This document shows, one piece after another, positions 5,874 through 46,973 of a DNA stretch of 64,000 nt. Both the position numbers and the translations under genes were made by a program. Below the pieces are notes generated by a model. That model did no database searches and was not told where the DNA came from. It saw nothing but the letters and a program-made list of their open reading frames with translations. The stretch is from positions 1 through 64,000 of the forward strand of contig NZ_FRBF01000005.1 in assembly GCF_900142545.1 (NCBI RefSeq), in the 5' to 3' direction. The stretch comes from Fibrobacter sp. UWT2 (lineage in GTDB: Bacteria > Fibrobacterota > Fibrobacteria > Fibrobacterales > Fibrobacteraceae). Position 1 is the stretch's first letter, and the number at the start of each line of letters is the position of its first letter.

Positions 5874-5994
5874 TACAATTGGGCGCGAGCGCTACTGAAG
5901 ATTACGTGTGAGCAACAAACGCCTCGTATTAACGAGGCGTGGTTGCGAGAGTGAGCGCTTTGGGTACGTACTTAGTACGATTGGGCGCGAACGG
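5874..5994. repeat. Dispersed structured element, copy A (mdh 3' region)
   Basis: This element directly abuts the mdh stop codon. Its core (5908-5950) is a two-part hairpin on the plus strand: GTGA, stem GCAAC, AA, stem ACGCCTCG, loop TATTAA, CGAGGCGT, G, GTTGC, GAGA. It is followed by GAGCGCTT, GGGTACGTAC and ATTGGGCGCGAACGGT. A second copy follows serA at about 32207-32315 with the same loops but different stems that still pair. A partial extra unit (ATTGGGCGCGAGCG) lies at about 5878-5891. Confidence 0.8.
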
Positions 5995-6969
<975 letters not shown>

Positions 6970-32170: not shown

Positions 32171-32202
32171 AAAAAAAAGCCTGGTTAATACCAGGCTTTT
32201 TT
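32171..32202. terminator. Bidirectional terminator between pilin-like gene and serA
   Basis: AAAAAAAA-GCCTGGT-TAAT-ACCAGGC-TTTTTT forms a seven-base stem flanked by A and T runs. It ends both the pilin transcript and the serA transcript; in the latter it lies beyond the structured element. Confidence 0.9.
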
Positions 32203-32206
32203 GCTT

Positions 32207-32315
32207 AATGGCACGAACGGTCTCTGTGAGCCTAAAGCGACTCGTATTAACGAGTCGCGTAGGCGAGAGCGAGCGCTTCGGGTACGTACTAACCCGATTG
32301 GGCGCGAGCGGTCTC
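32207..32315. repeat. Dispersed structured element, copy B (serA 3' region)
   Basis: The core at 32226-32268 reads GTGA, stem GCCTA, AA, stem GCGACTCG, loop TATTAA, CGAGTCGC, G, TAGGC, GAGA. It is followed by GCGAGCGCTT, GGGTACGTAC and CGATTGGGCGCGAGCGGT up to the serA stop codon. Compared with copy A behind mdh, loops and bulges are identical while several stem pairs differ in a compensatory way. Confidence 0.8.
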
Positions 32316-33482
32316 TTAGAAATGAATGACGCGGACCTTGATGACCTTGTCGAGCTTGGAGAGCTTTTCGACGATAGAGTCATCGACCTTGCTTTCCACG
32401 TCAACGAGGTTGTAGCCGATCTTGCCATTGCTCTTGTTGCTGAAAGAAGCAATGTTGATGCCTTCGGCACCGAACACCTTCGTGATTTCAGAAATCATGT
32501 TCGGAACGTCCTGGTTGATCACCACGACGCGGCTCTTGACGCCGGAATGCGGGTGGTCAACGAGGGCCGGGAAGTTCACGGAATTGCGGACGCAACCGTA
32601 TTCGATGTAGTCCTTCAATTCTTCGACAGCCATCACGGCGCAGTTTTCTTCGGCTTCTTCGGTAGAAGCGCCGAGGTGCGGGAAGCAGGTCACCTTGTCG
32701 TTCTTGATGAGGTCTGCATCCGGGAAGTCGCAGAGGTAGCCCTGGAGAGAACCGGAAGCGAGCATTTCGTTCACCGGAGCCATTTCCACGATACCACCGC
32801 GGGCGAAGTTCATGATGTAGCTGCCCTTGAAGCCGGCGAGGTTCTTGCGGTTGAGCAAGTTTTCGGTCACGCCCTTGATGAACGGAACGTGCACGGTGAG
32901 GAAGTCGGAGTTGGCGATCACGGTGTCGAGGTCGGCAATCTCAACCTTGTTGGAAAGTTCGTGCATGTTGGCGGCGTTCGGATACGGTTCGTAAGCGATG
33001 ACGCGCATGTTCTTCCAACGGGCATAGTTAGCGACGAGCACGCCGATCTTGCCGAGGCCAATCACGCCGAGAGTCTTACCGGCGAGTTCCATGCCGGCGA
33101 ACTTCTTCTTACCGCTTTCAACGGTCTTGGCGAGGTCCGGATCGTTCGTGTCGAGGCCCTTGACCCAAGCGGCAGCCTTGTCCACGTTACGCACAGCCAT
33201 GCCGAGCACGGTCATCACGAGTTCGGCAACGGCGTTGGCGTTTGCACCCGGAGTATTGAACACGCAGATGCCCTTTGCGGAAGCCTTGTCGATGGTGATG
33301 TTGTTCACGCCAGCGCCGGCGCGGGCGACAGCCAGTAGGCCGTCAAAGTTGTCGGTATCAACCTGGGCGGAACGCACCAAGATGGCATCGGGTTTTTCGA
33401 TAGAATCGGAAACCTGATAGAACGAGCCAAACAGGCTCAAGCCTTTCTTGGAAATATTGTTCATCGTCTTAATAGTTGCCAT
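32316..33482 (-). CDS. serA: D-3-phosphoglycerate dehydrogenase
   Basis: The 388-residue enzyme catalyses the first step of serine synthesis from 3-phosphoglycerate using NAD. The Rossmann motif is LGVIGLGKIGVLVAN, followed by the family motifs FGARGG-type MNFARGGIVE, and Glu/His positions in CFPHLGASTEEAEE. A C-terminal ACT domain (about 315-388, VVVINQDVPNMISEI) suggests feedback by serine. Length is between the short and long SerA types. ATG 33482 has AAAGGA six bases upstream. The stop codon is directly followed by the structured element. No serB or serC lies nearby. Confidence 0.92.
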   Translation of the reverse strand: MATIKTMNNISKKGLSLFGSFYQVSDSIEKPDAILVRSAQVDTDNFDGLLAVARAGAGVNNITIDKASAKGICVFNTPGANANAVAELVMTVLGMAVRNVDKAAAWVKGLDTNDPDLAKTVESGKKKFAGMELAGKTLGVIGLGKIGVLVANYARWKNMRVIAYEPYPNAANMHELSNKVEIADLDTVIANSDFLTVHVPFIKGVTENLLNRKNLAGFKGSYIMNFARGGIVEMAPVNEMLASGSLQGYLCDFPDADLIKNDKVTCFPHLGASTEEAEENCAVMAVEELKDYIEYGCVRNSVNFPALVDHPHSGVKSRVVVINQDVPNMISEITKVFGAEGINIASFSNKSNGKIGYNLVDVESKVDDSIVEKLSKLDKVIKVRVIHF

Positions 33483-40006: not shown

Positions 40007-40011
40007 AAAAA

Positions 40012-40039
40012 GTAGGAAGTAGGAAGTAGGAAGTAGGAA
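40012..40039. repeat. Four exact GTAGGAA heptamers between rpsO and thiH
   Basis: GTAGGAA is repeated four times in tandem without mismatch. The same unit starts the longer array at 46869, also in four exact copies. Just downstream, three A-rich repeats (GGGCAAAAAT, GGGGTAAAAAT, GGCAAAAAAT) occur at about 40048-40080. Confidence 0.85.
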
Positions 40040-40119
40040 GGAAATTTGGGGCAAAAATGGGGTAAAAATGGCAAAAAATTGATAAAAAGCTACTTCTAGC
40101 AAGATTTGGGCATCTTTTC

Positions 40120-46099: not shown

Positions 46100-46879
46100 G
46101 TGCTTGAACATCTGAATTTCAATTTCTCTTTTTACGACTGGCTACTGATTTTCATGGTGACGGCGTTGGGTACTCTCAGCGCCTATTTGAAAGATCCCCA
46201 GCTGAAAGCGGTGACGGCCACCATTCCGATTCCTTGCGGATTTGCCTACATTGCAGTCGGACTCCCGATGGGGGCGGCCAACGCCATTTCTGGCTTTATG
46301 TGCCTGCTGTACGTGCATATCGTCCGCGTTCTGCATTACAAGGTGAAAATTCCGATTGTGCCGAGCATTATTGCGGGTCTCGCCTTTTTTGTGGCGCTGG
46401 GCACCTTCCTGATGCCCCGCATTCCGGACAGCGAGCCGGTCTTTATCGGAGTCTGCATTTTTGACCTGATTGTGGGCATCGTCCTTTTCCAGACGCAGGA
46501 CTACAAAGCGGGCGTGCGCTACAAGACTCCCCTGCCGGTTTACATCAAGGCGCCAGCAATTGCAGGTGTCGTCGGTGGACTCATGCTCATCAAGCGCCTG
46601 ATGGGCGGATTCTGCACCAGTTTCCCCATGATGAATTCCATCGTGAGCTACGAAAGCCGCTATTCCCTGGGCGACCAGTGCAGGCAACTGCCCCTGTTCT
46701 TGATTGCGGGCCCCTTCATGTTCGTCGAGATGCACTTTATCGAGACTCGCCTCGGTTGGAACCACTGGATTGTGCTTTTGTGCGGTTACGTGCTGTTTGC
46801 CGCCATTTACTGGCCGCTGAACCAGGAACTCAAGCGCCGCAATGAACGAGCAGAGAAAAGTTATAGGAGTAGGAAGTAG
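46100..46879 (+). CDS. Multi-pass inner-membrane protein, function unknown
   Basis: The 259-residue protein has seven or eight hydrophobic segments and a few charged residues in loops (KDPQLKA, RYKTPLPVYIK, ESRYSLGD). I recognise no family; the layout is compatible with a transporter or a lipid-modifying enzyme. The GTG start at 46100 lies 11 bases after a TATCTT box and 22 bases after the GGDEF gene, so it may be co-transcribed with it or leaderless. Its last codons (SYRSRK, stop) run into the tandem heptamer array: the TAG stop is part of the second GTAGGAA unit. The natural C-terminus may have been set by repeat expansion. Confidence 0.65.
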   Translation: MLEHLNFNFSFYDWLLIFMVTALGTLSAYLKDPQLKAVTATIPIPCGFAYIAVGLPMGAANAISGFMCLLYVHIVRVLHYKVKIPIVPSIIAGLAFFVALGTFLMPRIPDSEPVFIGVCIFDLIVGIVLFQTQDYKAGVRYKTPLPVYIKAPAIAGVVGGLMLIKRLMGGFCTSFPMMNSIVSYESRYSLGDQCRQLPLFLIAGPFMFVEMHFIETRLGWNHWIVLLCGYVLFAAIYWPLNQELKRRNERAEKSYRSRK

Positions 46880-46973
46880 GAAGTAGGAAGTAGGAAGTAG
46901 ACAGTAGGCAGTTGGCAGTAGGCAGTTGGCAGTAGACAGTTGGCTGTGGGCTATGGGCTGTGGGCTGTGGGTG
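46869..46973. repeat. Tandem array of fifteen 7-bp units
   Basis: Four GTAGGAA units are followed without any gap by GTAGACA, GTAGGCA, GTTGGCA, GTAGGCA, GTTGGCA, GTAGACA, GTTGGCT, GTGGGCT, ATGGGCT, GTGGGCT and GTGGGTG. The phase is kept across all 105 bases while the sequence drifts from GTAGGAA to GTGGGCT. Shorter relatives lie at 19452-19472, 40012-40039 and about 33625-33645. Confidence 0.85.

Follow-up and report, generated by a model that had tools for sequence, protein, structure and literature searches.

The window, the whole 64,000-nucleotide stretch of Fibrobacter sp. UWT2 DNA analyzed here, contains two copies of a two-hairpin repeat of about 92 nt, each lying at the 3′ end of a gene encoded on the minus strand (Table 1). 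Copy A adjoins mdh and copy B adjoins a serA-like gene (hereafter serA). The right end of copy A merges with the inverted stop codon of mdh (TTA, 5995-5997), the TAA of which is its insertion site, whereas copy B stands 1 nt from the TAA stop codon of serA (32316-32318). To the left of each copy, part of another element survives as a remnant of its right end. An ordinary terminator hairpin is also present downstream of serA, so that copy B is not the sole terminator of this gene. When scored as intrinsic terminators in the direction of the gene, HP1 of copy A is terminator-like and copy B is not. The TTAATA/TATTAA loop of HP1 is frequent also in the ordinary terminator hairpins of this genome, including the one after serA.

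Table 1. Features of the repeat and of its neighbors in the window (GTGAG-first orientation of the repeat is +).
Feature	Position	Strand	Sequence or evidence
Copy A, whole element	5907-5997	+	Covariance model 112 bits, E 1.5e-26; sequence
Copy A, GTGAG tag	5908-5912	+	Near-invariant across copies
Copy A, hairpin 1 (HP1)	5912-5946	+	Sequence, fold, covariation
Copy A, stem 1	5912-5916 / 5942-5946	+	GCAAC/GTTGC
Copy A, AA bulge; G bulge	5917-5918; 5941	+	
Copy A, stem 2	5919-5926 / 5933-5940	+	ACGCCTCG/CGAGGCGT
Copy A, HP1 loop	5927-5932	+	TATTAA
Copy A, linker from HP1 to HP2	5947-5951	+	GAGAG
Copy A, hairpin 2 (HP2)	5952-5991	+	Stem 3 TGAGCGC (5952-5958) / GCGCGAA (5985-5991); tandem G.A, variable middle
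mdh (malate dehydrogenase)	5995-6936	-	NCBIfam malate dehydrogenase, E 5.6e-127
Remnant, right end of another element	5878-5891	+	ATTGGGCGCGAGCG; DNA search match
Copy B, whole element	32225-32314	+	Covariance model 110.3 bits, E 4.1e-26
Copy B, HP1	32230-32264	+	Sequence, fold
Copy B, stem 1	32230-32234 / 32260-32264	+	GCCTA/TAGGC
Copy B, AA bulge; G bulge	32235-32236; 32259	+	
Copy B, stem 2	32237-32244 / 32251-32258	+	GCGACTCG/CGAGTCGC
Copy B, HP1 loop	32245-32250	+	
Copy B, HP2	32270-32308	+	Stem 3 CGAGCGC (32270-32276) / GCGCGAG (32302-32308); sequence, fold, covariation
serA-like phosphoglycerate dehydrogenase	32316-33482	-	NCBIfam, E 9.2e-70; under the curated cut-off
Remnant, right end of a further element, truncated	32210-32223	+	GGCACGAACGGTCT; sequence
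Ordinary terminator hairpin after serA, beyond copy B	32173-32202	-	

An earlier note on this DNA had described a hairpin in two copies (5908-5950 and 32226-32268) that align without gaps, and both are found at these positions. As it reported, five base pairs differ between them, three in stem 1 and two in stem 2, all remaining Watson-Crick, and the AA bulge, the TATTAA loop and the G bulge are the same in both. These hairpins are, however, only the left half of the repeat, and the right half adds a sixth compensatory change, the closing pair of stem 3 in HP2 being T-A in copy A and C-G in copy B.

Architecture, covariation and the probable folded strand

Read on the GTGAG-first strand, the element consists of a YGTGAG tag, the bulged stem-loop HP1, GAGAG, HP2 and a terminal CGGTCT. 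Some copies have GTGAA in place of the usual GTGAG. HP1 is formed by a 5-bp stem 1, an AA bulge, a stem 2 of 8-9 bp, the loop, a G bulge and the returning strand of stem 1, with AA opposite G between the two stems in nearly all copies. Its loop is TATTAA, GTGTTAA, GTTAA or of the GNRA type (GTAA, GCAA, GAAA). HP2 has a stem 3 of 7-8 bp and a variable middle; stem 3 often carries tandem G.A as YGAR/YGAR and is fully Watson-Crick in other subtypes. The subtypes of HP1 and HP2 combine freely, and stems 1, 2 and 3 occur in 38, 67 and 56 distinct forms, respectively.

Among 131 distinct copies, in an alignment fitted to the covariance model and so biased toward structure, the three helices covary strongly (score 0.548 versus 0.161 ± 0.007 for shuffled and 0.018-0.061 for slid controls), with 97.0% of cells paired (shuffled, 74.2 ± 0.5), 380 cells changed on both sides (shuffled, 85.5 ± 6.4) and double changes in 16 of the 17 pairs. 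The same picture is seen in a gap-free subset of 69 equal-length HP1 sequences. Selection on a folded single strand is thus well supported; the earlier note had proposed selection on structure. Between orthologous copies, comparable pairs show 33 compensatory and 3 broken changes, many of them from few shared loci. Copy B and its serA orthologue in genome G044, for example, have an HP2 subtype in common, whereas their HP1s differ by six compensatory pairs with none broken, a difference that looks like module exchange.

Several features distinguish the two strands. Loops of the form GCG(T/C/A)AAGC are GNRA loops on the GTGAG-first strand only, and the tandem Y-GA-R/Y-GA-R of stem 3, read on that strand, gives G.A pairs of the sheared type. 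G.T departures outnumber A.C by 14 to 4 when the basal stem-2 pair is left out and by 56 to 4 when it is included, most G.T cells belonging to that one pair. Together these features, which are partial evidence on the strand, favor the GTGAG-first strand as the one that folds. A strand preference from folding energy was discarded, because composition-matched shuffles give the same strand difference. The GTGAG-first strand is the template of the adjacent gene, and the mRNA therefore carries its complement. Since the strand features point to the strand opposite the mRNA, the fold does not predict a stable 3′ fragment of the mdh and serA mRNAs.

Distribution and placement at gene ends

The earlier description of the element as a two-copy one does not hold. 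A DNA search of the 3.49-Mb genome with a 90-nt consensus returns 29 matches at E ≤ 10, of which a stricter limit of E < 0.001 retains about 23, and the covariance model finds about 33 copies at E < 0.01. Head-to-tail arrays exist, such as the four copies at C9:127890-128262. The covariance search of Fibrobacter genomes suggested in the earlier note yields matches in 78 of 80, with 2 to 54 copies in each of these (0-54 over all 80). In a sample of 168 genomes of the phylum, 84 match, comprising the 78 Fibrobacter genomes and six genomes of two further Fibrobacteraceae genera; outside Fibrobacter the repeat is found only within this family. Relatives carry near-identical orthologous copies beside the same genes, the mdh orthologues coming from Fibrobacter succinogenes, F. 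intestinalis and Fibrobacter sp. Chance resemblance is ruled out by covariance-model E-values of about 1e-26 per genome. Copies that fail to covary, or a lack of copies outside this strain, were named in the earlier note as contrary to its reading; instead, the copies are many and they covary.

At the gathering score, Rfam gives no match in the window, and in 20 further loci the element matches no family; a permissive Rfam search of copy A returned only chance-level sRNA matches, and an identity from this source was rejected. A gapped pattern search for the element gave no match. In the openly accessible literature we found no account of such a repeat in Fibrobacter.

Other small sequences accompany the repeat or resemble it in location. 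An Rfam ftsZ-DE RNA (RF02985; L078:1146-1215) directly adjoins a four-copy tandem array (L078:1219-1591), and two other small repeats, GCGTGCAAAACGAGTGTCGC... and ...CCACATAAGCACTAAAGTGCTAAGTGGCC..., are nested between HP2 and HP1 (L169, L309, L120; L319, L210, L114, L159). Tandem arrays of a heptamer (AGTAGGA/AGTAGACAG) lie close behind genes in the window (40011-40054 and 46854-46939), and similar ones are present behind a TAG stop codon on contig C1 of this genome and in L299. These heptamer arrays are a second repeat at gene ends.

At 51 of 93 non-redundant loci the end of HP2 falls close to a stop codon (-8 to +3 nt), in one orientation; a stop was counted if it closes a frame of 100 codons or more, or of 60 or more at a locus edge. 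Shifted windows give 1-6 of 93, and the HP1 end 5 of 93. The stop codons are TAA (42), TAG (6) and TGA (3), often completed by the element's own first bases (TA+AGACCG, T+AGACCG, T+GACCG). At five loci (L097, L098, L099, L124 and L132) the element overlaps the last codons and supplies C-terminal residues together with the stop (..KKAARV-stop), and the homologue in this genome ends in ..KKLAKI-stop. Inspected by eye, a fructose-bisphosphate aldolase frame in G070 (L162) enters the element and ends inside it (..QKMYAVRDRSR-stop), the aldolase of this genome (C2:26855) ending in ..QKMYEHKIVDVLGSNNKL-stop.

The adjacent genes are strongly codon-biased. In this genome their self-consistent CAI has a median of 0.671 versus 0.348 for 766 long ORFs (p = 4.5e-7), based on sixteen frames of which one is probably spurious (the second frame at L075, percentile 0.02). 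Among the most codon-biased are mdh, serA, fusA, pta, gdhA and fba. NCBIfam identifies, above cut-off, malate dehydrogenase, phosphate acetyltransferase, NADP-glutamate dehydrogenase, class II fructose-bisphosphate aldolase, acetolactate synthase small subunit and rubrerythrin; EF-G (from partial sequence) and phosphoglycerate dehydrogenase score under it. Transcription-linked targeting or selection for a role in the 3′ untranslated region (UTR) could explain this enrichment behind highly expressed genes.

Filled and empty sites

Roughly half the mdh loci in Fibrobacter carry the element, in several subtypes, starting at the stop codon; the remainder continue directly into plain 3′ flank, two of them with a remnant. 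Only two filled/empty pairs are clean. At mdh, the site is filled here (ACGTAA-[CCG...CTCAC]-ACGTAATCTTCAGTAG) and empty in G077 (ACGTAATCTTCAATAG), whereas at C4:21696 this genome has the empty site (TAATTCCCG) and G040 the filled one (TAA-[...CTCAC]-TAGTTCCCG). The duplicated target bases around TAA differ between the two, being ACGTAA at mdh and TAA/TAG at C4:21696. A third apparent pair (L082 versus L298) was set aside, as it compares tandem paralogues. GTAA occurs within 10 nt after the end of HP1 in 16 of 64 copies, compared with 2-3 of 64 in later control windows. At fusA the element is present in all three species compared, in three different subtypes, and at pta in both species seen, where the subtypes also differ. 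For a test of 5′ truncation, truncated copies were counted by an HP2-end motif, which proved too unspecific (123 matches versus 133 in a reversed control). Insertion and loss of the element are demonstrated, as are its placement at stop codons and the conservation of its structure. Of the structured RNA that the earlier note suggested behind mdh and serA, the structure is borne out by many covarying copies; its reading as RNA is weakened, because the element is a dispersed inserted repeat with empty sites in relatives.

A domain search found no Y1 transposase domain in this genome, nor in high-copy genomes such as G037, G043, G044 and G064, while a Y1 domain of IS200 size is present in 27 of the 80 Fibrobacter genomes. 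Membership of a REP/RAYT system was rejected, with the element near only 1 of 30 Y1 loci inspected. A reverse transcriptase was also rejected as mobilizer, RVT_1 being present in 18 of the 80 genomes and absent from this one. We saw no autonomous copy of the element, and inspection of the alignment reveals no terminal inverted repeats, the ends being GTGAG... and ...CGGTCT.

Interpretation and comparison with known systems

The repeat is probably a non-autonomous small mobile element of Fibrobacteraceae, REP-like in its working and recognized as a folded single strand. A trans-acting recombinase would recognize the folded GTGAG-first strand (the template strand of the neighboring gene), most likely as ssDNA, and would join the element at TAA-like sites. 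Insertion at gene ends would be nearly harmless and hence survive, because the stop codon is kept or rebuilt at the junction (TA+A, T+AG, T+GA). Transcription activity or selection may then lead copies to accumulate downstream of highly expressed genes, and the element would there become part of the 3′ UTR. Removal of insertions from other sites is not in itself enough to account for placement to ±3 nt or for the bias toward highly expressed genes. More speculatively, the repeat could be a stop-codon-targeting element of highly expressed genes moved by a new single-strand (DNA or RNA) recombination system, neither Y1 nor reverse transcriptase; insertion would be safe because the stop is duplicated or rebuilt, and the element would serve genus-wide as a swappable 3′-end module of core metabolic genes.

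Exact placement at stop codons and the strong bias to highly codon-biased genes would also suit a cis-acting 3′ untranslated RNA, whose hairpins protect the mRNA 3′ end or aid termination or ribosome recycling and which selection keeps or re-acquires. The recurrence at fusA and pta, though in differing subtypes, and the pairing kept by orthologous copies, largely at few shared loci, point the same way. However, the strand-specific features favor the opposite strand, serA has an ordinary terminator anyway and many orthologues lack the element, making this explanation unlikely. A double-stranded DNA site or cruciform for a host protein such as gyrase, a possibility that the earlier note had also raised, would agree with the location behind highly transcribed genes and with the link that has been made between REP-type repeats and supercoiling (PMC3733652). 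We consider it improbable, as a duplex would prefer neither G.T over A.C nor GNRA-like loops on one strand, and the stems are too variable for a sequence-specific site. The RNA-like features of the GTGAG-first strand (GNRA loops, tandem G.A and strong covariation) could likewise reflect a trans-acting or antisense small RNA, but that strand has no promoter-like site near either window copy, the copies are dispersed with changing neighbors and Rfam has no match, so there is little to recommend it. Template-switch mutation, with one arm copied from the other, might preserve palindromes in place of selection on the fold and produce whole-block changes such as that in HP1 of copy B, but it is very improbable, since it would erase the AA/G bulges and tandem G.A mismatches kept in over 100 copies, and exchange of modules with other copies accounts equally well for the blocks.

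The mobile element that we favor shares features with several known repeats. MITE-type small repeats with TA duplication include Correia, RUP and ERIC. Like these, the Fibrobacter element is short, non-autonomous and dispersed, with a small A/T-rich target duplication in its two clean filled/empty pairs, but it lacks terminal inverted repeats and its hairpins are strand-asymmetric. Integron attC sites lie directly behind stop codons in fixed orientation, fold as the bottom strand and keep their structure despite variable stem sequence. The Fibrobacter element resembles them in placement, orientation and conserved structure, and probably in the strand that folds, yet by inspection it has no RYYYAAC/GTTRRRY core (stem 1 has its 38 forms, and GAGCAAC does not fit), and it is found at single core chromosomal genes, not in cassette arrays.

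The likeness to REP/BIME sequences of E. coli and Pseudomonas, which are associated with TnpA-REP/RAYT, extends further. In E. coli, TnpA-REP cleaves the single-stranded REP, a hairpin bearing a tag and an AA bulge, beside CT dinucleotides (PMC8266576), and REPs lie mostly downstream of genes (PMC3733652). As in these REPs (PMC8266576; PMC3733652), the Fibrobacter element is dispersed, intergenic and mostly downstream of genes, has a short tag at the 5′ foot of its hairpin, occurs in tandem copies and carries CT dinucleotides near both ends. It is also an imperfect palindrome with an AA-containing bulge and presumably shares strand-specific single-strand recognition. It differs in its tag, GTGAG in place of the conserved GTAG at the hairpin foot, in its unit of ~92 nt with two different hairpins, in its one fixed orientation with an end a few nt from the stop codon, and in the short target duplication of the two clean pairs; moreover, no TnpA-REP gene is present in this genome and none was found flanked by the element. 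We do not claim REP membership, given the different tag and the lack of the enzyme in this genome. For CGTC-tagged REPs no dedicated transposase is known (PMC3733652). These too are tagged palindromes with no mobilizer identified, but their tag and architecture are different and the double hairpin is found only in the Fibrobacter element.

The Fibrobacter repeat is real, broader than first noted, and probably a REP-like small mobile repeat. Its placement at the stops of fusA, mdh, gdhA, fba and serA constitutes a natural experiment in which a structured sequence is set behind the stop of strongly expressed genes, and the presence in sister species of different modules at a single locus shows these gene ends to be evolving fast. 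With a covariance model, near-exact ends and filled and empty sites, the family offers a test case for what moves REP-like repeats that lack a transposase.
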